This document shows positions 2,321 through 26,391 of a stretch of 32,609 bases of DNA, one piece after another (position 1 is the stretch's first letter; every line of letters starts with the position of its first letter). This DNA comes from a virus: the IMG/VR virus record IMGVR_UViG_3300042544_000946, positions 1-32,609 of that record, one strand, 5' to 3'. The notes beneath the pieces are model-generated. The model saw only the letters and a program-made list of their open reading frames with translations, searched no databases and had not been told where the DNA came from. Both the position numbers and the translations under genes were made by a program.

Positions 2321-2331
2321 AAGGAAATAAA

Positions 2332-2736
2332 ATGAAATTATATATAAAATATATTGATGGACAAATTGTTGATCACCCGATGCTTGAAGATAATCTAACG
2401 CAGGTAGATCCTACTTTTGATCCAGATAATCTCCCAGATACATTAAAAGTATTCGAACGTGTAAATGCTCCGATACCTGGACCATATGCTTACATACAGG
2501 TTTCATATCAACTAGGTGATGATGGTATTGTTAGAGATACGTATACAGAATTACCATTCAGTGCAGAAGAACGAGCCAAGCTAATTGAATATACAATGGC
2601 ACAAGCGCATCCCAAAGGTTGGACCTTTAATGAAACAATCTGTGGTTGGGAACCAGGAGTACCTTATCCAACAGATGGAAAAGTTTATGAATGGTCTGAA
2701 GAATTAGAGAACTGGTCAGAAATGAATACTTATTAA
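2332..2736 (+). CDS. Conserved phage protein of unknown function between nrdA and nrdB
   Basis: 134 aa, acidic, with no signal peptide or membrane segment. It has a clear ribosome binding site (AAGGAAATAAA) and starts 11 bp after nrdA. The C-terminal part holds a Trp-rich pattern, roughly W-x-F-x-x-x-x-x-x-W-x-P then PYPTDG-x-x-Y-x-W and a final W. I recall similar 'C-x-W-x-P...YPTDGK-x-Y-x-W' tails in proteins of marine T4-like phages, where some are virion-associated. I cannot assign a function. Lying inside the nrdA-nrdB-glutaredoxin run suggests co-transcription, not a shared role. Confidence 0.75.
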   Translation: MKLYIKYIDGQIVDHPMLEDNLTQVDPTFDPDNLPDTLKVFERVNAPIPGPYAYIQVSYQLGDDGIVRDTYTELPFSAEERAKLIEYTMAQAHPKGWTFNETICGWEPGVPYPTDGKVYEWSEELENWSEMNTY

Positions 2737-2740
2737 TACT

Positions 2741-3841
2741 ATGTCAAAAGCACAGTACAATTTTTCAAAACAAACAAATTACCTTAAGCGTACAATGTTT
2801 CTAGATCCAGCAGGTCCAGTAACAGTGCAACGGTTCGAGGAAGTTAAGTATCCTAAACTACAAAAGTACGAAGAACTTGCTCGGGGCTTCTTTTGGGTTC
2901 CAGAGGAAATTAGTCTTACCAAAGACAAGATGGATCACAAAGAAGCCAGTGATGCTGTTAAACATATCTTTACCAGTAACTTGCTAAGGCAAACTGCGTT
3001 AGATTCTATCCAGGGTCGAGCGCCTTTCCAAGTGTTTGGGCCAGTTAGTTCAATTCCAGAACTCGAAGCACTGACACTTACCTGGAGTTTCTTCGAAACA
3101 AGCATTCACAGCAAGAGCTATAGTCATATTATTCGTAATGTCTACGGAGTACCTAAAGATGAGTTTAACAAGATTCACGACACGGCTGAAATTGCTGGTA
3201 TGGCTGCTAGTGTTGGTCGCTACTATGAGGATCTTCATATTCTTAACAGCCGTGCAGAGCTGGGCGAAGATGTTGGACTCCATACTCACAAGCGAGCCAT
3301 ATGGATGGCCCTACATGCATCATACGCACTCGAAGCTCTACGTTTCATGGTATCCTTCGCCACGTCACTTGCTATGGTAGAGAATAAGATTTACATCGGT
3401 AACGGTAACATCATCAGTTTGATTCTACAAGACGAACTGCTTCATGCAGAGTGGACTGGTTGGTTAATTAACAATGTAACCAAAGACGATCCGGACTTTA
3501 TTGAAATTGGAAAAGAGTGTGAAGCAGAAGTATACGCTATGTATATGGAAGTCATTCAAGAAGAAAAAGCCTGGGCCGAATACTTGTTCAAGAAGGGTGT
3601 GGTCATTGGATTGAATGCCAACATATTGAAAGACTTTGTTGACTATACTGCATTTACTAGACTAAAAGAAATTGGCATCAAGTATCTAGCAGACCATCCA
3701 AAGATGAGTCCTATCCCTTGGTTTAACAAGCACGTTAACATCAATAAGAAACAAACAGCATTACAGGAAAACGAAAGCACCAATTATGTTATTGGTGTTA
3801 TGAGTGATTCAGTTAGCTATGAAGAACTACCAGATTTATAA
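2741..3841 (+). CDS. nrdB: Class Ia ribonucleotide reductase, small (beta) subunit
   Basis: 366 aa ferritin-like radical subunit that houses the di-iron tyrosyl radical cofactor for NrdA. Ligand equivalents visible are D88 (LDSIQG), E119 and H123 (helix FFETSIHSKSY), E198 (ALEALRF), and E232/H235 (QDELLH). The radical tyrosine is Y127. One oddity is that E119 and H123 are separated by three residues (ETSIH), whereas E. coli and T4 NrdB have two (ETIH), so there is a one-residue insertion in a metal-ligand helix. The C-terminal end is acidic (YEELPDL), as expected for docking to NrdA. It starts 4 bp after the preceding gene and is followed 8 bp later by glutaredoxin, forming an nrd operon. Confidence 0.96.
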   Translation: MSKAQYNFSKQTNYLKRTMFLDPAGPVTVQRFEEVKYPKLQKYEELARGFFWVPEEISLTKDKMDHKEASDAVKHIFTSNLLRQTALDSIQGRAPFQVFGPVSSIPELEALTLTWSFFETSIHSKSYSHIIRNVYGVPKDEFNKIHDTAEIAGMAASVGRYYEDLHILNSRAELGEDVGLHTHKRAIWMALHASYALEALRFMVSFATSLAMVENKIYIGNGNIISLILQDELLHAEWTGWLINNVTKDDPDFIEIGKECEAEVYAMYMEVIQEEKAWAEYLFKKGVVIGLNANILKDFVDYTAFTRLKEIGIKYLADHPKMSPIPWFNKHVNINKKQTALQENESTNYVIGVMSDSVSYEELPDL

Positions 3842-4550: not shown

Positions 4551-4838
4551 ATGTTAATTCAAAAACCCGCAGCCACTGGTGACACAGTGAGCATTAAATT
4601 AATTTCCGGTGAAGAAATCATCGGACGTTTAGATGAAGATACCAGTGAGTATGTTAAACTAAACAGACCTAAGAGTGTTAGTATCGGCGCACAAGGACTA
4701 GGTATGATGCCGTTTATGTTTCTAGGTGGAGCAGACAACGTTACTATTAAACATAATCATATCATTGTTATGGTACTTGCAGAGAAAAGTGCAGCCGATC
4801 AATATGTACAGGGAACAACTGGCATTGCTCTATCGTAA
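4551..4838 (+). CDS. Small phage protein with an Sm/Hfq-like sequence pattern
   Basis: 95 aa, mostly predicted beta. Residues 12-45 (TVSIKLISGEEIIGRLDED then YVKLNRPKSVSI) resemble an Sm1 motif, in which a hydrophobic strand, a bent G-E-x-x-x-G-x-L strand and a third strand form the Sm half-barrel. Residues 62-75 (NVTIKHNHIIVMV) could be the Sm2-type strands. This is pattern recognition, not proof of RNA binding. The gene follows its neighbour by one base and lies upstream of the tail hydrolase. A late-type TAAATA element overlaps its end. Confidence 0.7.
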   Translation: MLIQKPAATGDTVSIKLISGEEIIGRLDEDTSEYVKLNRPKSVSIGAQGLGMMPFMFLGGADNVTIKHNHIIVMVLAEKSAADQYVQGTTGIALS

Positions 4839-4841
4839 ATA
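4836..4841 (+). promoter_or_regulatory. Late-type promoter element TAAATA
   Basis: TAAATA spans the stop codon of the upstream gene. It lies 17 bp before the start of the tail-type hydrolase gene, with an AGGAG ribosome binding site in between. It is one of a family of TAAATA elements in this window (see findings). Confidence 0.5.
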
Positions 4842-4858
4842 TATGATAGGAGATTAAT

Positions 4859-5692
4859 ATGCCATACATTTCCGGCACAGGCCGAATTTCAGACGTTTAC
4901 CATAGCGGCAATGTTTACGCTAACAATGTTCCAATCGCTCTTTGGTTATCGCCCGGTGCTAGTGGTACATTTGGCGGTATTAGCATATCAGTGGCAGTGG
5001 AACTAGATCCATTAGTAGTTGAGGCAGTAGCGAGCCAGGTCAATACCTATGTAGCTGCTCAGAATGGCCAACCTAATCAATATTATAGTGCTGCCGCGGC
5101 AGCTGATGGTGTTAAAGGTAATTATGCAGGTACAGTTGATGATGGTACCACAGCCACTGCCGCAGTATCGCTAATTTCAACTGACACTACTTTCTCTAGT
5201 ATTGTTCCATTCTTAGACAAATGTCTCGATGAAGCTGCACAAGGAAAGTGGCGTGAATCTGGTCAAGGTGGTAAACCTAGTAATCCTAATATTACTGGCA
5301 TTTGGCAGAACATAGGATATCCCGGTAGCAGTCCGTGGACCACAGATCAAACGGCATGGTGTATGGGATTTATTAACTTTGGATTAAAGAGTTCGGGGTA
5401 TCGATATTTCCAAACTGCATCCGCAGCCGCAATTACAACCAATCCAGAAAAGTGGAACGCTACGCAAGTTCCTAAAGATCAAGCACAGCCCGGTGACATA
5501 GCATTCTGGAGTTATAGGCACGTTAACTTTGTCTATACAGCCCAAAATGGCAAATACACGTTTGTTGGCGGAAATCAAAGTCCAAAAGCAAGTAATAATC
5601 CGGATGACGGCGATGTAACCAAATCTTATCCAAACGGAACAGGCGCTAATAACGCAAATTGGGTAAGTTGCTGGCGTCCAAGTAAAACATAA
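4859..5692 (+). CDS. Tail-type peptidoglycan hydrolase: PAAR-like N-terminus plus NlpC/P60-type (TIGR02594-like) domain
   Basis: 277 aa. The C-terminal half (about 158-245) matches the TIGR02594/CHAP-like cysteine peptidase pattern. C168 sits in QTAWCMGFIN, followed by a PGDIAFW strand (211-217), H221 in RHVNFVY, and GGNQ (237-240). Cys-His-Asn/Gln is the expected catalytic set for cutting peptide bonds in peptidoglycan. Residues 1-30 (a G-x-x-D-x-x-H-x-G-x-V-x-x-N-x-x-P pattern) resemble a PAAR-type spike-tip fragment. The middle is Ala/Gly/Thr-rich linker. There is no signal peptide, which fits a virion-borne cell-wall enzyme better than a secreted endolysin. It could still be the lysis enzyme. 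It has an RBS (ATAGGAGATTAAT) and a late-type TAAATA upstream. Confidence 0.75.
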   Translation: MPYISGTGRISDVYHSGNVYANNVPIALWLSPGASGTFGGISISVAVELDPLVVEAVASQVNTYVAAQNGQPNQYYSAAAAADGVKGNYAGTVDDGTTATAAVSLISTDTTFSSIVPFLDKCLDEAAQGKWRESGQGGKPSNPNITGIWQNIGYPGSSPWTTDQTAWCMGFINFGLKSSGYRYFQTASAAAITTNPEKWNATQVPKDQAQPGDIAFWSYRHVNFVYTAQNGKYTFVGGNQSPKASNNPDDGDVTKSYPNGTGANNANWVSCWRPSKT

Positions 5693-6248: not shown

Positions 6249-6599
6249 ATGAAAAAATTATTGACTGCACTTGTTTTGTCTTTTGCTCTTGTTGGAGCAG
6301 TATCTGCACAACATAGACATTATGGCCATCACGGATATCATGGTCCAAGAGTAATCCACCACCATAGTGGTAATTGGGGACAAGTATTTGTTCCGTTGAT
6401 CATCGGTGGAGTTGTAGGTGCTGCCATTGCAAATAATAATAGACCCGTTGAGACTCCTACTGTCGTTGTTCAGCCACCGATCGCACAAGGTTCTCCAATT
6501 ATACAATGTCCTCAAGGTACATACCCATTTGAGAATTTTGGTTGGGTTAAAAACCAATATGGACAATTTGTCCAAGCTATCTATATTGAGTGTAAGTAA
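6249..6599 (+). CDS. Secreted or periplasmic His-rich protein of unknown function
   Basis: 116 aa. The signal peptide is clear (MKKLLTALVLSFALVGAVSA, cleavage after about residue 20). A His/Gly/Tyr-rich segment follows (HRHYGHHGYHGP, then IHHH), which could bind metal ions. After it comes a Gly/Ala-rich hydrophobic stretch (VFVPLIIGGVVGAAIA) that may sit in a membrane, then a Pro/Val linker. The C-terminal module carries two cysteines (CPQGTYPF...YIEC) that may form a disulfide. The start is ATG 6249 with GGAG 6 nt upstream; an ATG at 6237 is possible. Its stop overlaps the iscU start (TAATG). I do not recognise the family. Confidence 0.75.
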   Translation: MKKLLTALVLSFALVGAVSAQHRHYGHHGYHGPRVIHHHSGNWGQVFVPLIIGGVVGAAIANNNRPVETPTVVVQPPIAQGSPIIQCPQGTYPFENFGWVKNQYGQFVQAIYIECK

Positions 6600-6985
6600 T
6601 GGCCTACTCAGATAAAGTTGTTGATCACTATGAAAATCCCAGGAATGTCGGATCTTTTGACAAGGGTGATCCTAGTGTTGGTACTGGTATGGTTGGCGCA
6701 CCTGCTTGCGGCGATGTAATGAAATTACAGATAAAGGTTGACCATGATACAGGTATTATTACAGATGCGAAATTTAAAACGTATGGCTGTGGATCGGCTA
6801 TCGCGAGCTCGAGCCTCATTACAGAGTGGGTCAAAGGCATGCACATCGACGAAGCCAGAACAATTAAAAACTCCGAAATTGCCGAAGAGCTAGCTCTACC
6901 ACCAGTTAAGATACATTGTTCAATTCTAGCAGAAGATGCTATCAAAGCGGCAGTAGATGATTACCGTAACCGACACAGCCAATAA
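6599..6985 (+). CDS. iscU: IscU-type Fe-S cluster assembly scaffold
   Basis: 128 aa, full length for IscU. All ligands are present: C37 and D39 (GAPACGDV), C64 (YGCGSAIASSS), H106 and C107 (LPPVKIHCS). The LPPVK chaperone-binding motif recognised by HscA is intact. In bacteria IscU builds [2Fe-2S] and [4Fe-4S] clusters using sulfur from IscS. No iscS, hscA, hscB or fdx is in the window, so host partners would be needed, although the phage DnaK at 23990 belongs to the HscA superfamily. The gene overlaps the upstream gene by 1 bp and the IscA-type gene by 29 bp. Confidence 0.95.
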   Translation: MAYSDKVVDHYENPRNVGSFDKGDPSVGTGMVGAPACGDVMKLQIKVDHDTGIITDAKFKTYGCGSAIASSSLITEWVKGMHIDEARTIKNSEIAEELALPPVKIHCSILAEDAIKAAVDDYRNRHSQ

Positions 6986-7283
6986 GAAAATCCTACAACT
7001 TCTGTCTCGACGTGGCAAGGGTATTGGTATACGGCTAGGCGTAAAAACTACAGGTTGTAGTGGCCTTGCTTATACGTTAGAATATGTTGATAGTTATACT
7101 GTCGAAGAAGGTGTAACTAATTTTGCCCAACCAGAGTTTGTAGTATTGGTTGATGCAAAGTCACTGGCATACCTACAAGGACTCATTGTTGATTGGGCTC
7201 GTAATGGACTCAATGAAGGATTTGAATTTCGCAATCCCAATGAACGTGATAAATGTGGGTGTGGAGAAAGTTTTAGAGTGTAA
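6957..7283 (+). CDS. iscA: A-type Fe-S carrier (IscA/ErpA family)
   Basis: 108 aa, closely resembling IscA along its whole length. Ligand cysteines C34 (TTGCSGLAY), C100 and C102 (KCGCGESF) are all present. It would accept clusters from IscU and hand them to target proteins, or supply iron. It starts 29 bp inside the end of iscU in another frame, so the two are translated together. IscA fits better than ErpA or SufA by eye (GKGIGIRLGV, GLNEGFEFRNPN), but the three are hard to separate. The stop region overlaps TAAATA at 7281-7286, just upstream of the tmRNA. Confidence 0.92.
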   Translation: MITVTDTANKKILQLLSRRGKGIGIRLGVKTTGCSGLAYTLEYVDSYTVEEGVTNFAQPEFVVLVDAKSLAYLQGLIVDWARNGLNEGFEFRNPNERDKCGCGESFRV

Positions 7284-7289
7284 ATAAAA

Positions 7290-7605
7290 GTTAAGACTGT
7301 ATGAAGTAGACAGAAAAGGATTCAAGACGCGGGGGCAGTGCCCGCCAGGTCCACCATAAAGTACATTGGCCAACACCCGACATACTGGGATAATAAGATG
7401 GCATAGCCGCTAGTGTATTTTATAATGGGCCTGACACAGGATCGATTGGGTCACAAGTATTGAAATGGACAGTCCGGCAATGTAGAAGCCGTTAGGATTG
7501 GGGTCTCCCGGTCGAAGAAGCACAACAAAGTAAACGCAAACGACTCACAGTTCGCATTGGCAGCCTAAACGCAGCCTAGGGTAAGACATACCTCGTAACA
7601 GAAAC
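7290..7605 (+). ncRNA. ssrA: Transfer-messenger RNA, circularly permuted (two-piece)
   Basis: The two halves occur in reverse order. The acceptor piece comes first: T-stem 7329-7333/7341-7345 with a 7-nt loop, acceptor 3' strand 7346-7352, discriminator A7353 and CCA 7354-7356. The coding piece starts at GGGCCTG (7427-7433), which pairs fully with acceptor strand CAGGTCC (one G-U), followed by ACAGGATCGAT as in other tmRNAs. The tag frame is 7536-7568, with resume codon GCA and peptide ANDSQFALAA then TAA, preceded by the usual TAAAC. About 70 nt (7357-7426) would be the excised spacer. The T-loop is GGCAGTG, not the TTC-type consensus. tmRNA rescues stalled ribosomes and tags the product for ClpXP. 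TAAATA at 7281-7286 may be its promoter. The ends are approximate. Confidence 0.93.
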
Positions 7606-7609
7606 TCAG

Positions 7610-7634
7610 AACCCGCTTCGGCGGGTTTTCTTTT
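7610..7634 (+). terminator. Intrinsic terminator after the tmRNA
   Basis: The stem AACCCGC (7610-7616) pairs with GCGGGTT (7621-7627) around a TTCG tetraloop, followed by a T-rich run (TTTTCTTTT). Confidence 0.9.
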
Positions 7635-7716: not shown

Positions 7717-8721
7717 GTGAAAAAACTATTTGCTATTCTATTAGCCGCAGTGACTATATCAGCACAAGCCACGGACATCACAGGTGCAGGAGCGACATTT
7801 CCATTTCCAATCTATGCCAAGTGGGCTGAAGGATATAAGAAAGCCACAGGTACCGGTATGAACTATCAGAGCATTGGATCATCTGGTGGCATTCGCCAAA
7901 TCAATGCAAAGACAGTGGACTTTGGTGCAACTGATGCTCCAGTATCAGGTGAAAACTTAGACAAGAACGGTCAAGTACAGTTCCCTGCTATTATCGGCGG
8001 AACAGTTCCTGTTGTAAACTTAGACGGTTTCAAGCCAGGCGAACTACGCATCACTGGACCAGTTATGGCCGAAGTGTTCTTGGGCAACATTGCCAAGTGG
8101 AATGATCCTCGATTACTAGCATTGAATCCAGGCAAACAATTACCTGATCAGCCTATTACCATTGTACATCGTGCTGATGGTAGTGGTACAACATTCAACT
8201 GGACAGACTATCTTGCTACAGTTAGCCCCGAGTGGTTGAGCCGAGTAGGTCGTGGTGCGGCAGTTAAATGGCCGGCTGCTAGTTCAGTAGGTGGCAAGGG
8301 CAATGAAGGTGTTGCTGCCAATGTAAACAGAATTAAAGGTTCAATTGGTTATGTAGAGTATGCTTATGTTAAGAAAAACAATATGACATTTCTACAACTG
8401 CAGAACAAGGCAGGCCGGTATGTTAGCCCAGATGACTTAACATTTGCCGCTGCCGCAGACGGTGCTGATTGGTTCAGTGTTCCTGGTATGGGACTGAGTA
8501 TTGTGGATCAAAAGAATCCCAATGCTTGGCCAGTGAGTTCAGCCAGTTTCATCATCATGTACAAAGAGCCAAAGAGCAAAGCTACCAGCGATGAAGTATT
8601 AAAGTTCTTTGATTGGGCATTTAAGAATGGCAAGAAAGATGCCGCAGACTTAGACTATGTAGCATTACCGGACAGTTTGACAAAACAGATCCGTGAGCGT
8701 GTTTGGACACAGATTAAGTAA
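7717..8721 (+). CDS. pstS: Phosphate ABC transporter substrate-binding protein
   Basis: 334 aa periplasmic phosphate-binding protein. It starts at GTG 7717 with AAGGAG 7 nt upstream; this start gives a clean signal peptide (MKKLFAILLAAVTISAQA, cleavage near residue 18). An earlier in-frame start lacks an RBS. Binding-site segments typical of PstS are present: GAGATFPFPIY, SIGSSGGI, and RADGSGTTF, which contacts the phosphate oxyanion. The transporter genes pstCAB are absent, so the protein would feed the host transporter, as proposed for pstS in marine T4-like phages. It is flanked by terminators on both sides, so it is probably a single-gene unit. Confidence 0.96.
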   Translation: MKKLFAILLAAVTISAQATDITGAGATFPFPIYAKWAEGYKKATGTGMNYQSIGSSGGIRQINAKTVDFGATDAPVSGENLDKNGQVQFPAIIGGTVPVVNLDGFKPGELRITGPVMAEVFLGNIAKWNDPRLLALNPGKQLPDQPITIVHRADGSGTTFNWTDYLATVSPEWLSRVGRGAAVKWPAASSVGGKGNEGVAANVNRIKGSIGYVEYAYVKKNNMTFLQLQNKAGRYVSPDDLTFAAAADGADWFSVPGMGLSIVDQKNPNAWPVSSASFIIMYKEPKSKATSDEVLKFFDWAFKNGKKDAADLDYVALPDSLTKQIRERVWTQIK

Positions 8722-16633: not shown

Positions 16634-17164
16634 ATGGCAAAACATTTAATGATCGATATGGAGACTATGGCAGTTTCCCCAAACGCTGTAGTCCTCAGTC
16701 TAGGCGCAGTACACTTCAATCCCTATTCACAGGGCTATGGAGAAAAGATATATTTTAAAATTGATCTCGATGACCAAGACAAACTAGGCCGTGAAATCGA
16801 TCCCCAAACATTGGAATGGTGGGGGCGACAGGATCCTGCTATCATGGAAGAAGCTTTCAGCGAAGAAGGTCGTATTCCCCTAGTTGATGCTATGGATCAG
16901 TTCCACAAATTTGCTTGGAACTGCGATGCATATTGGAGTCATGGCGCTACCTTTGATCTTGTGATTATAGAAAACATTTATCGCCAACTTGGTAAACCAC
17001 TGCCATGGAACTATTGGCAACTACGCGATACTCGCACATTGTTTGATTTGGGCTACGATCCAGATATGCCACAGGGCAGTAAACACGATGCCCTGCAAGA
17101 TGCTATTCGACAAGCAGTAGGTGTGCAAAACATCTACGCAAAAATGAAAATCAGACCACGATAA
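16634..17164 (+). CDS. DEDDh 3'-5' exonuclease, DexA/Rv2179c-like
   Basis: 176 aa RNase H-fold exonuclease. The acidic catalytic set is visible: D8 and E10 (MIDMET), D108 (HGATFDLVII), H151 and D156 (KHDALQDAIRQA), which is the DEDDh type. The segment PQTLEWWGRQDPA (about 57-69) matches the 'T..WW..Q.p.a' feature of T4 DexA and the Rv2179c-like exoribonucleases. T4 DexA degrades single-stranded DNA 3' to 5', while Rv2179c acts on RNA, so the substrate is open. The gene is expressed from an exact consensus promoter and the transcript appears leaderless. Confidence 0.9.
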   Translation: MAKHLMIDMETMAVSPNAVVLSLGAVHFNPYSQGYGEKIYFKIDLDDQDKLGREIDPQTLEWWGRQDPAIMEEAFSEEGRIPLVDAMDQFHKFAWNCDAYWSHGATFDLVIIENIYRQLGKPLPWNYWQLRDTRTLFDLGYDPDMPQGSKHDALQDAIRQAVGVQNIYAKMKIRPR

Positions 17165-17287
17165 TGTTCATGGTTTCCCTATTACTAAAATAGGAAAATA
17201 CAATGGAAGACTCATGGTTTTCCATTGATTTCTTCATTAAATACATGTACAATAAATATTGTTTCATTCACACACAAAGGAGATATT
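17165..17287 (+). promoter_or_regulatory. Regulatory region of the ahpC-like operon
   Basis: TTGATT 17225-17230 and TACAAT 17248-17253 are 17 bp apart, a sigma70-type promoter. AATAAATA (17251-17258) overlaps the -10 box and could be a late element. A perfect 8-bp inverted repeat, CAATGGAA/TTCCATTG (17201-17208/17220-17227, 11-nt loop), overlaps the -35 and may be an operator. A further hairpin CCTATT/AATAGG lies at about 17178-17194. AAGGAG precedes ATG 17288. Confidence 0.55.
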
Positions 17288-17839
17288 ATGAAAACAGTGG
17301 GAGATAGATTGGAAAAATTTGCCGTAACAGGCGTGAACCCAGGTAAAGATGATTTCTTTACTATTACAGATGAGAGCTTTGCAGGAAAGTGGAAGGTAAT
17401 TGTTTACTATCCTAAGGACTTTACGTTCGTTTGTCCTACAGAAATTGTAGCCTACGATAAACTGTTCCAAGACTTTGCCGACCGTGACGCTGTATTGCTG
17501 ACAGGTTCAACAGACAACGAGTTCTGTAAACTAGCATGGCAACGTAGCCATGAAGATTTGAGCAAGATTAAACACATTCAGTTTGCTGATACTCAACGCC
17601 CTAACAACGAAACTTATGAGAATCTTAGCCTAATCGAACAGCTTGGTGTGTTCTATGCTCCAGCAGGTGCCGCACTTCGTGCAACATTCATTGTTGACCC
17701 AAACAATGAAATCCAACACGTTACTGTCAACAACTTGAACGTTGGTCGCTCACCCGAAGAAACACTTCGTGTATTGGATGCGCTACAAACTGGCGAACTA
17801 TGTGCTTGTAACCGTACAGTCGGCGGTGAGACTCTATAA
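17288..17839 (+). CDS. ahpC: AhpC/Prx1-type peroxiredoxin
   Basis: 183 aa from ATG 17288 (AAAGGAG upstream). Peroxidatic C49 lies in FTFVCPTEI with T46 and R131 as active-site partners. The C-terminal resolving region has C172 and C174 (ELCACNR), plus an additional C80. The CxC end is typical of the mycobacterial AhpC type, which takes electrons from AhpD, not from AhpF. An AhpD-like gene lies two genes downstream, which supports that pairing. It reduces hydrogen peroxide and organic peroxides and probably protects the infected cell. The stop overlaps the aldolase start (TAATG). Confidence 0.95.
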   Translation: MKTVGDRLEKFAVTGVNPGKDDFFTITDESFAGKWKVIVYYPKDFTFVCPTEIVAYDKLFQDFADRDAVLLTGSTDNEFCKLAWQRSHEDLSKIKHIQFADTQRPNNETYENLSLIEQLGVFYAPAGAALRATFIVDPNNEIQHVTVNNLNVGRSPEETLRVLDALQTGELCACNRTVGGETL

Positions 17840-18489
17840 TGTTAGAAACTATATGCGACACGTTAGTTGAAGCATATAGACGCAACTGGATTACCAGTCG
17901 TGATGGCAATGTTTCAATTCGTCATCACGACCGTGATCACTTTTATATCACACCCAGTGGCGTCCGTAAGCAGACCATGCAACCTGATCAGTTCAAGAAG
18001 ATTGGCATTGAGAAAGGTTACTACGATCAACCTCCTCGATTGTATCATGCTGGCAAGGAATTAGAGTACACTGACATTAGTGCTAACCTAAAGCCTAGCG
18101 GAGAACTACCATTGCACTTTGGCTTACAACGAGAAATGGGTCAACACTCAAGCGATGTTAGAGTTGTAGTTCATTTACATCCAACTTACTGCATTGCGGC
18201 CATGCATGCCGGTATTGATTTAGGAACGGTTAGTGCAGCCTTCCCAGAACTTAATCGCTATACTAAAGTTGCACCCAACGTTGGTGATGTTCCGCCTATC
18301 AGTCAAGAACTTGCTGATCGTTGTCACGAGAATCTACAGTTAGATAATCTAGGCAACATCGCCTACGATATTGTTGGTATCAAAGGTCACGGTGTTGTAG
18401 CCATTGACACAAGCCCATGGAGGGCGTTTGAACACATTGAACGATTAGAACATATTTGTCAAATCGTATTAGCATCAGGGAAATATTAA
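17839..18489 (+). CDS. Class II aldolase/adducin-family protein
   Basis: 216 aa. It carries the family landmarks: RDGNVSIRH (21-29), PSG (39-41), a candidate catalytic Glu E89 in PSGELPLH, metal-binding H112 and H114 (VVHLHPTY) and H184 (KGHGVVAI). The fold covers fuculose- and ribulose-phosphate aldolases and the methionine-salvage dehydratase MtnB. It does not clearly match one member, so the substrate is unknown. It may process a sugar phosphate or another carbonyl compound. It lies between ahpC-like and ahpD-like genes with 1-bp overlap upstream and a 1-bp gap downstream, so the three form one operon. Confidence 0.85.
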   Translation: MLETICDTLVEAYRRNWITSRDGNVSIRHHDRDHFYITPSGVRKQTMQPDQFKKIGIEKGYYDQPPRLYHAGKELEYTDISANLKPSGELPLHFGLQREMGQHSSDVRVVVHLHPTYCIAAMHAGIDLGTVSAAFPELNRYTKVAPNVGDVPPISQELADRCHENLQLDNLGNIAYDIVGIKGHGVVAIDTSPWRAFEHIERLEHICQIVLASGKY

Positions 18490-18490
18490 A

Positions 18491-18997
18491 ATGAGTTTTA
18501 TTGAATCAGTGAAAGGTGCGTTGCCAGACTACGCCAAAGATACAAAATTAAATCTGGATGCTGTATTGCTACGCAGTACATTGGATGCCGATGTTGCTAT
18601 GGGCTGTGCAGTAGCCGCTCTGGCCGCAACTGGCAACGGCAAAATATTATCAGTAATGTTAGCAGATGCTCCAGTACACGCAGAGTCAGCAATGACAGCC
18701 GCAAGCATTATGGCACAAAACAATGTATGGTACCCATTCGTTGAGATGGCTGATGATCCTAGTCTAAAAGGATTGCCAGCAGGTTTGCGTATGAACGCCA
18801 TTCTGCACCACGGTGGAACTACTAAGGCTAACTTTGAAGCATTCAGTCTTGCTGCCAGCATTGTGGGCAAGTGCCATTTTTGTGTTAAGGCACACTATGA
18901 CACACTTAAAAAGGAAGGCTATACTGTAGAACAACTTCGAGACATTGGACGTATTGCCAGCGTTATGAACAGTGTAGCCAAAGTGTTAAACAGTTAA
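18491..18997 (+). CDS. AhpD-like alkylhydroperoxidase
   Basis: 168 aa. It carries the complete AhpD catalytic signature E-x11-C-x2-C-x3-H: E116, C128, C131 and H135 (segment KCHFCVKAH). In mycobacteria AhpD is a thiol relay that re-reduces AhpC using lipoylated dihydrolipoamide succinyltransferase. Here the phage AhpC has the matching C-terminal CxC. Length is close to the single-domain-pair AhpD. The protein should act in the cytoplasm. A 570-bp non-coding region follows. Confidence 0.92.
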   Translation: MSFIESVKGALPDYAKDTKLNLDAVLLRSTLDADVAMGCAVAALAATGNGKILSVMLADAPVHAESAMTAASIMAQNNVWYPFVEMADDPSLKGLPAGLRMNAILHHGGTTKANFEAFSLAASIVGKCHFCVKAHYDTLKKEGYTVEQLRDIGRIASVMNSVAKVLNS

Positions 18998-19034
18998 TTT
19001 GGCTAAAAAAGGTATATTATCTGCAATATTTTTG

Positions 19035-19063
19035 TTGACAAGATAATTAAATTACTATATAAT
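19035..19063 (+). promoter_or_regulatory. Consensus sigma70-type promoter of the large non-coding RNA
   Basis: TTGACA 19035-19040 and TATAAT 19058-19063 are exact and separated by 17 bp. Predicted start is 19070. The nearest downstream gene begins 500 bp later, so a long untranslated RNA is made. Confidence 0.88.
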
Positions 19064-19086
19064 AATAGCATAGACAGTAAATTATA

Positions 19087-19106
19087 AGGTTAGGTACAGC
19101 AACATT
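19087..19106 (+). repeat. Direct repeat, copy 1 (5' end of the non-coding RNA)
   Basis: AGGTTA, two bases, then TACAGCAACA, one base, T. It matches copy 2 at 19519-19538 at all but three positions. The AGCAAC part is complementary to GTTGCT at 19178-19183, and AGGTTA to TAACCT at 19244-19249 and 19552-19557. Confidence 0.8.
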
Positions 19107-19518
19107 CATAATACTATGAATCGTTGGACCCTATGGTAGTCAGCTGGAGTTGAAGGGCTTGCCCGGAGACATTGAAGGTTGCTATTGAAATAGACCAACA
19201 AGCTCAGAGTGATGGCCTGAGTAAAATAAAAGCAGTCAACAACTAACCTGTTAAATCCTAGGATGGATTCAGCAACTTAAACATTAAACTCTGAGCTAAC
19301 TGCTATAGAAGATGGTCGCAGGACACAGTAGAAATACTGTACTAGGAAACTAGACTCGAAGGAATAGACGACACATTGGAAAGACTTTGTATGATGATTG
19401 TACAGACACAACACAATCTAGGCAACATGAATTGTTTGCTAGGCTTGCGGAACTAAACCGATACACTGGGGAATAGGCAAGCAGAAAATAAAATACGGTT
19501 CCGACCATCCTGTTGTAT

Positions 19519-19538
19519 AGGTTATATACAGCAACAAT
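19519..19538 (+). repeat. Direct repeat, copy 2 (3' end of the non-coding RNA)
   Basis: Second copy of the 20-nt repeat of 19087-19106, here forming the loop and 3' arm of the terminal hairpin. The two copies bracket the RNA, 432 nt apart. Confidence 0.8.
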
Positions 19539-19570
19539 TTTTTAATTAACATAACCTGAAGGAAAGTAAA

Positions 19571-20968
19571 ATGAACGCATTTGTTGAAGCGGTTAAGTCC
19601 GTTCCAGTTGAATCTCGTACCGCAAACGGTATGAAGACTTTTGAATCTAGCAAGAGTGATCTTGTAGATTTGTTCTTTGCCATTGGTGCAAGCCGTGGCA
19701 AGGATTTAAGCACTCAGTTTGCTCGCGCACTAGCACAAGACGAAACTCTTGCTCTACGTCTTTTGATGTGGGCACGTGACGTGCGTGGTGGCGCCGGCGA
19801 ACGTGACGTTGTTCGTAAGATTCTAGTAAATCTAGAAAAGACCAACCCAGCCGCATTGGCAAGAATTCTGCCACACCTGGCTGAATTTGGACGTTGGGAC
19901 GACCTATTGATTTTTACTTCCAAGGAAGTGAAGGCGCAGGCATTTACCCTAATCGGTGATGCGCTACGTGCTCGCAATGGGTTGGCAGCAAAGTGGATGC
20001 CACGTCAAGGTCCGTTGGCAGTTGAAATCCGCAATTTCTTCGGTATGAGCCCAAAGTTCTATCGTAAGAGTTTGGTTAACTTGAGTAAGACCGTTGAACA
20101 GAACATGTGTGCAAACACATGGGACCAAATCAATTATGGACACGTTCCATCGTTGGCGGCTGCTCGTTATCAAAAGGCTTTTAAGAAGCACGATGCTGTT
20201 GGTTATGATGCCTATAAGGCACGTTTGGTCTCTGGTGAAGATAAGGTTAATGCCGCAGCCGTTTACCCATACGATGTGATCAAGTCACATAAGTTTGGTG
20301 GAGACGCAACTGTGATCCAATCACAGTGGGATGCATTGCCAAACTACATCGGTGATGAACTGGTGTTGCCAATGTGTGACGTGTCTGGCTCTATGAGCTC
20401 ACCAGTTGGCGGAAACGCTAACTTGACTTGTATGGATGTTTGCGTGAGCTTGGGCTTGTACCTTGCTGATAAGAACACTGGTCCATTCAAGGACATGTTT
20501 TTGACTTTCTCTGCAAAGAGCAAGATCGAAATCTTGAAGGGTGACTTGTTAAGCAAGTTGGCTCAACTACAACGTGCAGATTGGGACATGAGTACCAACC
20601 TACACGCGGCCTTTGACACTGTATTAAACTACGCTGTCAAGGCCAATGTCGATGCCAAGGATATGCCACGGTATGTCCTTATCATGAGTGACATGGAGTT
20701 CAACGTTTGTACTCGCAACGATGACTCTGCTATGCAGATGATCGAACGCAAGTACAACGAAGCAGGATATACTGTTCCAAACATTGTATTCTGGAACTTG
20801 AACGCTCGTGCAGGTAATGTACCTGTTAAGCACGACAAGAAGGGTGTTGCCCTTGTTAGCGGATTTAGTCCAGCTATCATGAAGAGCATCCTGAGCGCTG
20901 AATCATTGGATCCTGTATCAGTAATGATGCAGACTTTGAACAGCCCACGTTATGCTGTAATAGCATAA
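19571..20968 (+). CDS. DUF2828 protein: TROVE/Ro60-like helical repeats plus vWA domain
   Basis: 465 aa. Residues 1-230 are helical repeats resembling the HEAT-like TROVE ring of Ro60, with the DUF2828 landmarks WARDVRGGAGERD (67-79) and YGHVPSLAAARY (189-200). Residues 262-430 are a vWA domain with a complete MIDAS: D270-x-S272-x-S274, T342 and D374 (MSDMEF). FWNLNAR (407-413) and KGVALVSGFS (424-433) are also family hallmarks. Ro60 binds misfolded RNAs and Y RNAs; RNA binding by DUF2828 proteins is not established to my knowledge. All 32 lysines use AAG and none AAA, unlike the neighbours, suggesting high expression or foreign origin. RBS GAAGGAAAG. It sits 27 bp after a large structured RNA. 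Confidence 0.88.
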   Translation: MNAFVEAVKSVPVESRTANGMKTFESSKSDLVDLFFAIGASRGKDLSTQFARALAQDETLALRLLMWARDVRGGAGERDVVRKILVNLEKTNPAALARILPHLAEFGRWDDLLIFTSKEVKAQAFTLIGDALRARNGLAAKWMPRQGPLAVEIRNFFGMSPKFYRKSLVNLSKTVEQNMCANTWDQINYGHVPSLAAARYQKAFKKHDAVGYDAYKARLVSGEDKVNAAAVYPYDVIKSHKFGGDATVIQSQWDALPNYIGDELVLPMCDVSGSMSSPVGGNANLTCMDVCVSLGLYLADKNTGPFKDMFLTFSAKSKIEILKGDLLSKLAQLQRADWDMSTNLHAAFDTVLNYAVKANVDAKDMPRYVLIMSDMEFNVCTRNDDSAMQMIERKYNEAGYTVPNIVFWNLNARAGNVPVKHDKKGVALVSGFSPAIMKSILSAESLDPVSVMMQTLNSPRYAVIA

Positions 20969-20975
20969 GGTGGTT

Positions 20976-21004
20976 AAAAAGGACTCCTAGGAGTCCTTTT
21001 TTTT
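20976..21004. terminator. Bidirectional intrinsic terminator
   Basis: AAGGACTC/GAGTCCTT around a CTAG loop is flanked by A-run and T-run on either side, so it can stop both the DUF2828 transcript and the convergent reverse-strand gene. Confidence 0.9.
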
Positions 21005-21006
21005 GA

Positions 21007-21426
21007 TTACTTAAACCAACCTATCTTCTTACCCTGTGCTTTGCGCTCATCGTATTCTTCAGGAGTACTTGGGAAACGTAATGCCCATATAGCGCAGAGT
21101 GCCATTCCCAGTCCAACACCTGCAACTAGTTTCCAATTGTAGGTAGTGAACCAAAGAATGATAAGACTGATATCCATGGTAATGATCATAGCCCATTTAC
21201 CATATGTTGGGAATACTCGTTTCTCACTCCAATTACGTAAGAACGGACCAAACAGTTTATGATTCATAATCCAATTATGCCAGCGATCTGAACTTTTGGC
21301 AAAACAGTAGGCAGCACCCACAGTTGGTGTGCTCCATGGAATTCCAGGTGTGACTACTCCAATATAGGCAATGCCTAAACAGATAAATCCTAGAGTCATC
21401 CATAACGCTTTTTTAATCTTTTCCAT
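21007..21426 (-). CDS. DUF454/YbaN-family inner membrane protein
   Basis: 139 aa, the only convincing gene on the reverse strand. It has three to four hydrophobic segments (about 7-27, 78-94 and 98-115) and the DUF454 pattern GVVTPGIPWSTPTVGAAYCFAKSSDRWHNWIMNHKLFGP. The N-terminal GFICLGIAYIGVVTPGIP corresponds to the typical 'lG.iGi.lP.lPTtPFlLla..cfarSS.r...wl' run. The function of this family is unknown. It has its own RBS (AAGGAT) and a TAAATA element in the correct orientation upstream (21449-21444). Confidence 0.88.
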   Translation of the reverse strand: MEKIKKALWMTLGFICLGIAYIGVVTPGIPWSTPTVGAAYCFAKSSDRWHNWIMNHKLFGPFLRNWSEKRVFPTYGKWAMIITMDISLIILWFTTYNWKLVAGVGLGMALCAIWALRFPSTPEEYDERKAQGKKIGWFK

Positions 21427-21443
21427 AATAAATCCTTATCAAC

Positions 21444-21449
21444 TATTTA
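21444..21449 (-). promoter_or_regulatory. Late-type promoter element TAAATA on the reverse strand
   Basis: Reads TAAATA on the reverse strand, 17 bp before the start of the DUF454 gene. It is back-to-back with the forward consensus promoter at 21467-21495. Confidence 0.5.
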
Positions 21450-21466
21450 ACTTGGTAAAATAGTGA

Positions 21467-21495
21467 TTGACAAAAGTTTGAATTCCGTGTATAAT
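21467..21495 (+). promoter_or_regulatory. Consensus sigma70-type promoter placed for a leaderless mRNA
   Basis: TTGACA 21467-21472 and TATAAT 21490-21495 are exact and 17 bp apart. ATG 21502 is 6 bp after the -10 box, exactly as at 16599-16634, and there is no Shine-Dalgarno. Confidence 0.83.
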
Positions 21496-21501
21496 TAGTA
21501 T

Positions 21502-21759
21502 ATGAAACACTCGAAACTAGATCGTCGACATACTGGCTATTCAGACTTCAAGTATGCGGCTCAATTTGTTTCTAAAGAAAAACACAAATTCTGCGATATT
21601 AGAGAATGGGCATGGTCTCAATGGGGGCCTAGTTGTGAAATGGAATTTTGGGATTCTATTAGAAATCCTAGATGGTGTTGGGTAGTTGATCAATATAAAA
21701 TTAAGATTTTCCTTGCCACTGACGCAGAGTATCAGTGGTTTTTACTAAAATGGACATAA
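21502..21759 (+). CDS. Small Trp-rich phage protein of unknown function
   Basis: 85 aa with eight Trp residues, several in a run (REWAWSQWGPSCEMEFWDSI, then RWCWVVDQ). It is basic at the N-terminus, with no signal peptide, and three scattered cysteines. The start codon coincides with the predicted transcription start of a consensus promoter. It heads a run of seven closely spaced genes up to 23899. No family is recognised. Confidence 0.65.
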   Translation: MKHSKLDRRHTGYSDFKYAAQFVSKEKHKFCDIREWAWSQWGPSCEMEFWDSIRNPRWCWVVDQYKIKIFLATDAEYQWFLLKWT

Positions 21760-23913: not shown

Positions 23914-23946
23914 TAGCTGTAGTGAATACTTTTAAGATTTGCTACC

Positions 23947-23989
23947 GGACATAGTGTCCAAACTATTCTTACTTACCAAGGAGATAAAA
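23947..23989 (+). promoter_or_regulatory. dnaK leader element shared with hsp20
   Basis: Hairpin GGACA/TGTCC (23947-23951/23955-23959) is followed by ATTCTTACTT (23965-23974) and AAGGAGA. The same order and spacing recur upstream of hsp20 (25913-25956), with a compensating base change in the hairpin. Confidence 0.65.
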
Positions 23990-25867
23990 ATGAGTAGAGT
24001 AATCGGTATCGATTTAGGTACAACAAATTCGTGTGTAGCAGTCATTGAAAATGGTGTTACAAAAATTATTGAGAATTCAGAAGGCGCACGTACTACCCCT
24101 AGTATTGTTGCCTACGCCAATGATGAAATCCTTGTAGGAGCTTCAGCAAAGCGTCAAGCAGTAACAAACCCAAAAAATACAATCTACGCAAGTAAGCGTT
24201 TGATCGGACGTAAGTTTACAGAACAAGCAGTACAAAAAGACATTGACTTGATGCCTTACAAAATTGTACAAGCCGACAACGGTGATGCTTGGGTACAAGT
24301 AAACGAGGACAAACTTGCTCCTCCACAAATCAGCGCAGAAGTCCTGCGTAAAATGAAACAGACCGCAGAGGATTATCTAGGACATGAAGTCACACAAGCG
24401 GTTATTACAGTTCCTGCATACTTTAACGACAGTCAAAGACAGGCGACTAAGGATGCTGGTAAAATTGCCGGCTTAGAGGTACTCCGTATTATTAACGAGC
24501 CTACTGCGGCAGCTCTTGCTTATGGCGTCGATAAAGCTGATAAAGCTGACAGGAAAATTGCTGTATATGACCTCGGGGGAGGTACGTTTGACGTATCGAT
24601 CATTGAAATTGCAAATGTTGACGGTGATAAACAAATTGAAGTTCTAAGCACTAACGGTGATACATTCTTGGGTGGTGAAGACTTTGACCAACGTATCATG
24701 GACTTCTTAGTAGCAGAGTTTAAGAAAGACAACGGAGTTGATCTTACCAAAGACATGTTGGCTCTACAGCGTCTTAAAGAAGCCGCTGAAAAGGCCAAAA
24801 TTGAATTGTCCAGCTCTGCACAGACAGATGTTAATCTGCCTTACATCACAGCAGACGCAAGTGGTCCCAAGCACATGAACGTTAAGATCACTCGTGCTAA
24901 ACTTGAGCAGTTAGTTGATGAATTAATTCAACGTAGTATTGAACCTTGTAAGACTGCCATGGCAGATGCCAAAGTCACAGCCGCAGACATTGACGAAGTA
25001 ATTCTAGTTGGTGGTATGACACGTATGCCCAAGGTATACGAAACAGTCGAAAAGTTGTTTGGCAAAGCACCACGTAAAGATGTTAATCCAGACGAAGCAG
25101 TGGCCGCTGGCGCCGCCATTCAGGGTGATGTACTAGGCGGTGGCCGTACTGACGTTCTATTGTTAGACGTTACTCCATTGAGCTTAGGTATCGAAACAAT
25201 GGGCGGGGTTATGAGCAAGTTGATTCAAAAGAATACAACTATTCCTACCAAGGCAAGTCAGACATTCAGTACTGCTGAAGACAATCAACCTGCGGTTACT
25301 ATCAAGGCGTTCCAGGGCGAGCGTGAGTTTGTCCAGCATAACAAGTTGTTAGGTGATTTTAATCTTGAAGGTATTCCTCCTGCTCGCAGAGGTCAACCTC
25401 AAATTGAGATTACATTTGACATCGATGCCAATGGTATCATGCACGTATCTGCCAAGGACAAGAACACAGGCAAAGAAAACAAGATCACTATTAAATCCAA
25501 CAGTGGCCTAAGTGAAGCTGAAATCCAAGAGATGATCAAGGATGCGGAACTTAATGCCGACGAAGATAAGAAAAAGCGTGAACTTGTGGAAGCACGTAAT
25601 GGTGCTGAGAATGCCATCTACTCTATCAAAGAGGACATGGAAAAATACATTGACAAAGTCACCGCTGAAGAAAAGGCCAACCTTGAAGATGCTATCAAGG
25701 CTGTCGAAGATGCTGCCAAAGGTGATGATCCTAAGATCATTCAGGATCTTGTACAGGCAATGTTCAAGGCCATGGGTCCTTTGATGGAAAAGAAACAGTC
25801 CGAAACTGCTGATGCTAAACCTGCGGATGACAATGTTGTTGACGCAGAAGTCAAAGAGAGCGTATAA
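23990..25867 (+). CDS. dnaK: DnaK (Hsp70) chaperone
   Basis: 625 aa from ATG 23990, which has AAGGAG upstream; the longer open frame includes the leader hairpin. It has a complete Hsp70. The ATPase domain (1-380) carries [10 protein letters not shown] (phosphate 1), [12 protein letters not shown] (phosphate 2) and LVGGMTRMP (adenosine). The conserved linker is [19 protein letters not shown], followed by the substrate-binding beta domain and helical lid. The tail ends [10 protein letters not shown], like the bacterial DVVDAEFEEV end. It refolds proteins with DnaJ and GrpE, which are not here, so host co-chaperones would be used. A full dnaK in a phage is unusual. It is followed by hsp20 with a matching leader. 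Confidence 0.97.
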
Positions 25868-25956
25868 TTGTTATAAATAGTACTGTGGGACACCTAAATG
25901 GGTTCCACAGTCGGGCATAGAGCCCAACATGATTCTTACTTTATAAGGAGAAAATT
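25839..25956 (+). promoter_or_regulatory. Promoters and structured leader of hsp20
   Basis: TTGACG 25839-25844 and TATAAT 25863-25868 (18 bp) overlap the end of dnaK. A T4 late-type TATAAATA lies at 25872-25879. The leader has hairpin ACTGTGG/CCACAGT (25882-25888/25905-25911), extended by ACC/GGT, then GGGC/GCCC (25913-25916/25922-25925), ATTCTTACTT (25932-25941) and AAGGAG. It could act as a temperature-sensitive structure, but the RBS is not obviously paired. Confidence 0.6.
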
Positions 25957-26391
25957 ATGAATCAATTAGTACGTTTCGACACCAATGCTCTAAACAGAGC
26001 TCTAGTAGGATTTGACACAATGTTTGATAACTTTGAACAGCGTCTTGCAAGTCAAATCAACAACTCATATCCCCCATACAACATTCTAAAACACGATGAC
26101 AACTCTTACGAGTTAGAAATTGCTGTTACTGGTTTTACACCAGAAGAAGTTGTAGTAGAACTTGACCAAAATCAATTGATAGTTAAGGGACATCGCAGCC
26201 ATGACGAACATGCTGAAACACAGTATCTACATCGTGGACTAGCAACTCGTGATTTTACACGTAGTTGGACATTGGCTGAACACATGGAAGTAGGAGAAGG
26301 CCGTATTAAAAACGGTGTTCTTACTATTGCTCTAACTCGTGTTGTTCCAGAAGCTCTTAAACCAAGAGTTTTAAAGATCAAAGCTGAGTAA
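25957..26391 (+). CDS. Small heat shock protein (Hsp20/IbpA-like)
   Basis: 144 aa. The alpha-crystallin domain spans about 38-128: YPPYNILKHDDNSYELEIAV, then the TRDFTRSWTLAEHMEV strand and KNGVLTIALTR, the 'NG.L.I.L.R' signature. The N-terminal arm (FDTNALNRALVGFDTMFD) and the C-terminal PRVLKIKAE, which includes a V-x-K-I tail resembling the I-x-I anchor, are IbpA-like. It holds unfolded proteins for DnaK to refold. Hsp20 genes are common in T4-like marine phages. The leader resembles that of dnaK. Confidence 0.95.
   Translation: MNQLVRFDTNALNRALVGFDTMFDNFEQRLASQINNSYPPYNILKHDDNSYELEIAVTGFTPEEVVVELDQNQLIVKGHRSHDEHAETQYLHRGLATRDFTRSWTLAEHMEVGEGRIKNGVLTIALTRVVPEALKPRVLKIKAE

Follow-up and report, generated by a model that had tools for sequence, protein, structure and literature searches.

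The window, that is, the whole stretch of 32,609 nt of viral DNA that was analysed (IMG/VR record IMGVR_UViG_3300042544_000946), harbours at 19070–19557 a real, conserved and structured RNA, which lies behind a conserved promoter and directly upstream of the gene for a Ro60-like protein. The features of this region are as follows.

19035–19063, plus strand: sigma-70-type promoter, TTGACA-17-TATAAT, matching the consensus at 12/12 positions.
19070–19557, plus strand: the complete RNA, three units in a chain (blastn homologues, folding z score of −4.6, no Rfam match; start placed from the promoter).
19087–19249, plus strand: module A, with stem AGGTTAG (19087–19093)/CTAACCT (19243–19249), a 3-nt spacer, CAGCA (19097–19101) and the 141-nt effector domain A (strict descriptor, compensatory stem variants).
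19260–19511, plus strand: module B, with stem AGGATGG (19260–19266)/CCATCCT (19505–19511), a 3-nt spacer, CAGCA (19270–19274) and the 230-nt effector domain B (strict descriptor, covarying inner helices).
19303–19367, plus strand: domain B helix CTAT (19303–19306)/ATAG (19364–19367), with 100% of cells paired and both sides changed in 3/4 pairs.
19396–19418, plus strand: domain B hairpin stem GATTGT (19396–19401)/ACAATC (19413–19418), with 93.8% of cells paired and both sides changed in 5/6 pairs.
19443–19502, plus strand: H-type pseudoknot, GCTTGC (19443–19448)/GCAAGC (19477–19482) crossed by GGAAC (19449–19453)/GTTCC (19498–19502), with covariation.
19519–19557, plus strand: mini-unit C, AGGTTAT (19519–19525)/ATAACCT (19551–19557), with a 3-nt spacer, CAGCA (19529–19533) and a 17-nt insert.
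19571–20968, plus strand: gene for the Ro60-like protein, DUF2828/DUF7788, phrog_850 RNA-binding protein (Pfam, PHROGs, predicted structure).
20976–21001, plus strand: terminator-like hairpin after the Ro-like gene, an 11-pair stem followed by a T-run.

The exact promoter at 19035–19063 had been noticed from the sequence alone, as had the gene-free stretch that follows it, and both are borne out: no ORF of at least 60 amino acids overlaps 19064–19570, and a promoter matching at least 10/12 positions is found within about 100 nt upstream in 57/60 non-redundant homologous loci, compared with 3/60 reversed and 1/60 shuffled upstream stretches. The dense structure is equally evident, since the minimum free energy of −125.1 compares with a mean of −100.2 for 100 dinucleotide shuffles, none of which folded as well (z score of −4.6). 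The earlier observation that the RNA could not be matched to any class was accompanied by the suggestion of an Rfam search, which gave no family: the window RNA had no gathering-threshold match in Rfam 15, and a relaxed search of 18900–19700 returned five matches, the best with an E value of 0.35 and all far under their gathering scores. Neither ARAGORN nor Rfam detected a tRNA in the window RNA. The T-run hairpin described at the end of the RNA is present, overlapping unit C beside the Shine–Dalgarno sequence, but in many relatives it does not persist as a terminator; a conserved terminator at this position was accordingly rejected, and the T-run may not be the 3′ end of the RNA.

Homologous loci were collected in IMG/VR with the downstream gene (19571–20968) as query, and the best 80 of 344 were used. 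Many of these 80 gave a blastn match to the RNA, with identities as low as about 60%; the match mostly lies just upstream of the gene but downstream of it in L027, L028 and L030. The comparison of regions upstream of DUF2828-gene homologues, proposed together with the original observation, thus shows that the tie between RNA and gene holds widely. The same tie emerges from the opposite direction: a pattern built from the RNA alone retrieved 31 stretches, with the gene present in 27 of 30 new loci and the available DNA stopping at or just past the RNA in the remaining three, and in a larger motif-collected set a Ro-like gene lies close by in 97/112 loci. A total of 47 distinct RNA matches were extended to more than 380 nt, the last two (L017 and L023) being partial. 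A first alignment of all homologues was too gappy for folding, and RNAalifold on whole domains recovered the structure in part only. A set of 61 rows, from which the chance match L062 was left out, was selected for pairing of the A and B stems, and from it 43 rows (set A2) and 32 rows (set A3) were picked by hand for similar length; the high pairing of the A and B stems in these rows is therefore partly by construction.

Alignment of the homologues revealed that the window RNA is built from a single unit used three times in succession. The unit opens with a 7-nt strand, in most cases AGNNNNN, and continues with a spacer of exactly 3 nt, CAGCA(A), an insert and the complementary strand, usually followed by GTT. 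In the pairing-selected set, the stem of unit A occurs with both strands changed as GGTTAG/CTAACC, GGATCG/CGATCC, GATTAG/CTAATC, GGTAAG/CTTACC and GGGTAG/CTACCC, and that of unit B as GGATGG/CCATCC, GGATGA/TCATCC and GGATAG/CTATCC. When 46 homologues were aligned pairwise without selection, the stem was fully paired in 26 for A, 35 for B and 11 for C. Several of the misses appear to be alignment slips, and the low figure of 11/46 for C arises in part because the closing strand sits at another distance in many relatives. The Shine–Dalgarno sequence GAAGGA is located directly 3′ of unit C, with 13 nt between the unit and the next start codon. As expected of a Y RNA, units A, B and C are each closed by a basal stem formed from their two ends, with conserved unpaired bases.

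Several helices within module B also covary. The H-type pseudoknot recognized in the sequence-only reading is real and covaries in homologues: GGAAC/GTTCC is paired in 100% of cells, with both sides changed in 3/5 pairs, and GCTTG/CAAGC in 76% of cells as aligned, while GCTTGC/GCAAGC is swapped as a whole helix among relatives for GGTCTG/CAGACC, GGTCTAC/GTAGACC, GGCCAA/TTGGCC and others. Both GAAA hairpins, at 19326–19339 and 19342–19353, are present; the first varies with compensation (78% of cells paired) and the second is less well kept, its 48/128 paired cells being due in part to alignment shifts. The CTTG loop is found in GGGCTTGCCC, near 19155–19164. The inner helices of module B (CTAT/ATAG, GATTGT/ACAATC, GGAAC/GTTCC, the first GAAA hairpin and GCTTG/CAAGC) had no role in row selection. 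In the covariation test that had been called for, the whole structure, including the B stem, scored 0.316; shuffles reached 0.151 and slid partners no more than 0.077. A different outcome was obtained for the proposed 9-bp long-range pair, GATGGTCG (19311–19318)/CGACCATC (19503–19510), which competes with the better-kept B stem and was rejected: it pairs in 193/252 cells versus 219/223 for the B stem, in 32 homologues that had been chosen for A- and B-stem pairing. Taken as a whole, the original description of the RNA survives in its promoter, lack of ORFs, folding, GAAA and CTTG hairpins and pseudoknot, and is not supported in its long-range pair.

The DUF2828/DUF7788 neighbour has a predicted Ro60 fold, composed of a HEAT ring and a vWA domain. 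An AlphaFold2 model computed from 22 relatives (pLDDT of 79.6, pTM of 0.75) matches the TROVE structure 9kop with a Z score of 20.3, Ro60 of Thermus phage phiLo (PDB entry 9l5y) with 18.2, Xenopus and human Ro60 with 18.0 and 17.0, respectively, and Deinococcus Rsr with 13.7. Altogether, ten TROVE/Ro60 entries gave Z scores of 13.7–20.3 over 366–396 residues, compared with 11.6 for the best vWA-only structures. The protein thus shares its predicted two-domain architecture with Ro60/Rsr, including phiLo Ro60, but differs from them in belonging to DUF2828/DUF7788 and in being unrecognized by the Pfam TROVE model; PF05731 found no match in the window record at an E value of 0.001, which counts against the Y RNA reading.

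The association between unit and gene was quantified in the best 80 of 344 protein-collected loci, from which 16 duplicates and nine loci with short flanks or a missing N-terminus were dropped, leaving 55. A unit lies within 1.5 kb in all 55 distinct loci (reversed control 3/55) and 47 of them have one ending no more than 30 nt from the Ro start codon (reversed control 0/55), so that, again as expected of a Y RNA, the unit is encoded together with a gene of predicted Ro60 fold. When motif-collected loci and duplicates are included, a unit is found within 90 nt of the Ro start in 199/221 loci, and in 179 of these 199 the distance is 12–17 nt, which makes the closing strand abut the Shine–Dalgarno region. 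A strict descriptor (7 bp with at most one G-U, a 3-nt spacer, CAGCA and a closing GT or GCT) identified 374 distinct units in 2.15 Mb of collected loci, many of which had been gathered by RNA motifs, versus 16 matches in the reversed sequence.

Among 11 named phages with a Ro-like gene, the strict descriptor detected a unit in five (reversed control 0/11) and a looser one detected a unit within 1.5 kb in seven (reversed control 2/11). According in part to a loose pattern scan with many chance matches, tandem arrays of units occur in Aeromonas phage LAh_6, three units each in Synechococcus phage BUCT-ZZ01 and Mycobacterium phage Lumos, and two in Mammaliicoccus phage PMS3; units also lie near the gene in Bacillus phage 2S-4, and a tiny unit directly precedes the Ro start in Stenotrophomonas phage DLP6. 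In Escherichia phage JH2 (L118) the looser descriptor placed four units in a tRNA array that follows the Ro gene; these four are distinct from the two strict matches in this phage. No unit was found within 1.5 kb in the other four named phages (Citrobacter Ci1, Erwinia pEa_SNUABM_19, KVP40 and Ochrobactrum OC), which speaks against a Y RNA. In contigs from bacterial genomes a unit was detected in 5/8 (control 0), and ten loci of 3–4 kb each from eight cellular genomes with TROVE matches contained one poor unit match. A connection with the long RNAs of phages K and ICP1 was also considered and rejected, as tblastn gave no match to the Ro-like protein in the stretches examined; strict unit matches numbered one in 40 kb of ICP1 and none in 37 kb of K. 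Separately, one more CAGCA hairpin precedes the three-unit RNA in L055 and L057, near 3353; it may mark where a second chain ends.

Units are also associated with phage tRNA genes, which are present in 22/38 homologous or related loci scanned, with up to 27 in one locus. A tRNA begins within 25 nt after 44 of 461 distinct units, 33 of these at 10–12 nt, where chance corresponds to 1.4% of positions; the count of 44/461 includes three regions fetched for holding such tRNA-leader units. A motif search independent of Ro (47 stretches) yielded 45 copies of the mini-unit in 43 new loci, with the closing strand in 44 and a tRNA within 25 nt in 38. Mini-units located 10–14 nt before tRNA genes are found in large phage tRNA arrays (L257–L259, L260–L302 and positions 4726–5574 of JH2, L118). 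Thirteen among the largest contigs with a tRNA-leader mini-unit were searched for a Ro-like gene, which was found in nine, one of these being a partial match at the contig end; the four contigs where it was not found, all possibly fragments, count against the Y RNA reading, as does the absence of an RtcB RNA-repair gene in all eight contigs searched for it.

Bacterial Y RNAs are described in PMC8394870 as holding Ro60 at the stem formed by their two ends and binding PNPase through a domain similar to the D, T and acceptor arms of tRNA. YrlA resembles a tRNA with the basal stem in place of the anticodon arm; the primary Ro60 site is given as a bulged base in the Y RNA stem in PMC4030889 and PMC11277228. 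YrlA is reported in several phages according to PMC7765460, and no description of a large or multi-module phage Y RNA was recognized in the open-access PMC literature. The middle unit of Mycobacterium phage Lumos is matched by the Rfam YrlA model with 39.3 bits (E value of 2.8e-7 for 451 bases, under the gathering score of 69). A T-arm motif is present in the insert of 35 distinct units, and by a rough pattern a D-arm-like motif comes after it in 25 of these 35, as it should in a Y RNA. In jumbo-phage contigs, L167 among them, chained units surround tRNA-like inserts that are circularly permuted; a permuted intron or circularizing element had been considered for these inserts until the YrlA architecture was found to fit. 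In L167 the Ro-like gene is located elsewhere on the contig; of the eight unit contigs inspected for such a gene, four had been collected by the Ro protein, and only L167, L170, L154 and L145 are informative. L167 also contains, at about 7795–8050, a large structured stretch apparently closed by a long perfect stem (AAAAGTTTATTAAAAAGAACC and its complement), with no convincing Rfam match. Overlong tRNA genes near a Ro-like gene (L113 4711–4824, L112 4852–4966 and L116 524–640; 114–117 nt in Rfam tRNA matches) contain CAGCAA or a unit-like hairpin, partly according to the chance-prone loose scan, and are possibly tRNAs in which a docking unit replaces the anticodon arm.

The window RNA itself is not a YrlA, because the YrlA model (RF02553) has no match up to an E value of 10 in 18900–19700 and domains A and B lack the tRNA-like effector domain, which is seen only in units of relatives. 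Its likeness to YrlA-type RNAs lies in the adjoining Ro60-fold gene, in modules closed by a basal stem that includes a conserved asymmetric loop, and in relatives where the unit bears T and D arms like those of tRNA together with a closed acceptor, the YrlA model matching one such case. It differs in that three units are chained over about 490 nt, compared with 90–150 nt for YrlA in PMC8394870, in that its effector domains are large and not tRNA-like, in that a unit is present in the leader of the Ro mRNA, and in that the CAGCA(A) internal loop replaces the YrlA consensus loop. The cellular locus L251 encodes two YrlA above the gathering score without a CAGCA unit; the CAGCA stem form thus appears to be phage-type, and the connection to cellular Y RNAs depends on the tRNA-like modules of phages. 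With animal Y RNAs, the window RNA shares a basal stem with conserved unpaired bases, the Ro60 site according to PMC4030889 and PMC11277228, but it is far larger, carries several stems per RNA and shows no stem of the GGUCCGA type.

Taking together the conservation, compensatory changes and repeated unit of the RNA, its linkage to the Ro-like gene, the predicted Ro60 fold of the encoded protein and the YrlA-type modules of its relatives, the region is likely to encode a giant multi-module phage Y RNA, the units of which would dock the phage Ro60, with unit C probably regulating Ro60 translation. It is best described as a far larger three-unit variant of an already known kind of Y RNA, with two large effector domains. 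Points against it include the sub-threshold score of the Lumos match and the absence of a tRNA-like domain and of a YrlA match in the window RNA. Several other readings were weighed against this one. The unit could be a processing signal at which a nuclease or another phage protein cuts polycistronic precursors, the two large domains being released as separate RNAs; its placement between modules, 10–14 nt before tRNAs and 12–17 nt before the Ro start would suit such a role, but it travels with the Ro60 gene and forms the basal stem of YrlA-type modules, which is the Ro60 site of known Y RNAs according to PMC8394870, and this explanation is improbable. A long cis-regulatory leader controlling the Ro60 gene alone would fit a 5′ leader behind one promoter with unit C touching the Shine–Dalgarno sequence, but it would hardly place the RNA downstream of the gene, as in L027, L028 and L030, or units in tRNA arrays and in separate tRNA-like modules far from the gene, and there is very little likelihood that it accounts for the region.

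The original observation had pointed to an undescribed ornate RNA comparable to GOLLD and ROOL, which are large, structured, found in phages and often located near tRNA genes according to PMC7567579. What endures of this proposal is a large conserved structured RNA without an Rfam 15 family; the comparison itself gives way to a chain of three units. The window RNA shares the general traits of GOLLD and ROOL but differs from them in being tied to a Ro60-like gene and built from a repeated docking unit, and membership in either family was rejected, with no gathering match in the window and none up to an E value of 10 in 18900–19700. An autonomous RNA of this type, assembling through RNA alone and merely neighbouring the Ro-like gene, would explain the size, the many helices, the pseudoknot and the many homologous loci situated among tRNA genes (at least one in 22/38); the lack of an Rfam match, the constant linkage to the Ro60-fold gene and the occurrence of the unit on small and tRNA-like modules make it highly unlikely. 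A three-unit Y RNA is preferred to such a lone RNA because of the repeated unit, the YrlA-type modules in relatives and the Ro60-fold neighbour.

If the region is a Y RNA, the Ro60 ring would grip each docking unit, comprising the 7-bp basal stem, the 3-nt spacer, CAGCA(A) and usually GTT. The Y RNA is probably transcribed together with its phage Ro60 partner: the strongest terminator-like site among those listed in 17500–21500 lies after the gene (20976–21001), so that the simplest picture would be that of one transcript in which unit C senses free Ro60. Unit C, which immediately precedes the Shine–Dalgarno sequence within the 5′ leader of the Ro60 mRNA, most likely lets free Ro60 stop its own translation, a shut-off that would act once the Y RNA is saturated with Ro60. 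Since mini-units precede tRNA genes, the Ro60–RNA particle probably has a role in the quality control of phage tRNAs or RNA. A wider proposal, with about an even chance of being correct, is that of a general phage Ro60 docking system, in which the stem-CAGCA unit is used on giant Y RNAs, tRNA-like Y RNAs, tRNA-gene leaders and the Ro60 mRNA, and in which chained units would hold several Ro60 rings around large effector domains, with feedback on Ro60 synthesis.

To our knowledge, the roles of Ro60 and Y RNAs outside animals are poorly understood and bacterial models are few. From the present analysis, the Ro60–Y RNA system of some phages would be much richer than the small Y RNAs hitherto known, and a large orphan phage RNA would be explained by its partner protein. 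The docking unit is defined in sequence; its natural variants number in the hundreds, it bears effector domains of varied sizes, and it occurs in the Ro60 mRNA as well as in tRNA leaders, so that Ro60 recognition, autoregulation and the care of phage tRNAs become directly testable, including in a group of E. coli phages.

Other features were noted on the viral contig. A permuted tmRNA gene is located at 7223–7613 (Rfam RF04321 with 103.1 bits, alpha_tmRNA with 61.3 bits), with no flanking CAGCA units by reading of the sequence or by the unit descriptor. A second exact TTGACA-17-TATAAT promoter lies at 21467–21495, just upstream of an ORF at 21502. Host-like genes at 2–3838, 6599–6982, 17225–17836 and 23939–26388 encode the large and small chains of ribonucleotide reductase, a NifU N-terminal domain, AhpC/TSA, Hsp70 and Hsp20, and a 3′–5′ exoribonuclease domain (Rv2179c-like, E value of 2e-38) is encoded at 16634–17161, about 2 kb upstream of the RNA.
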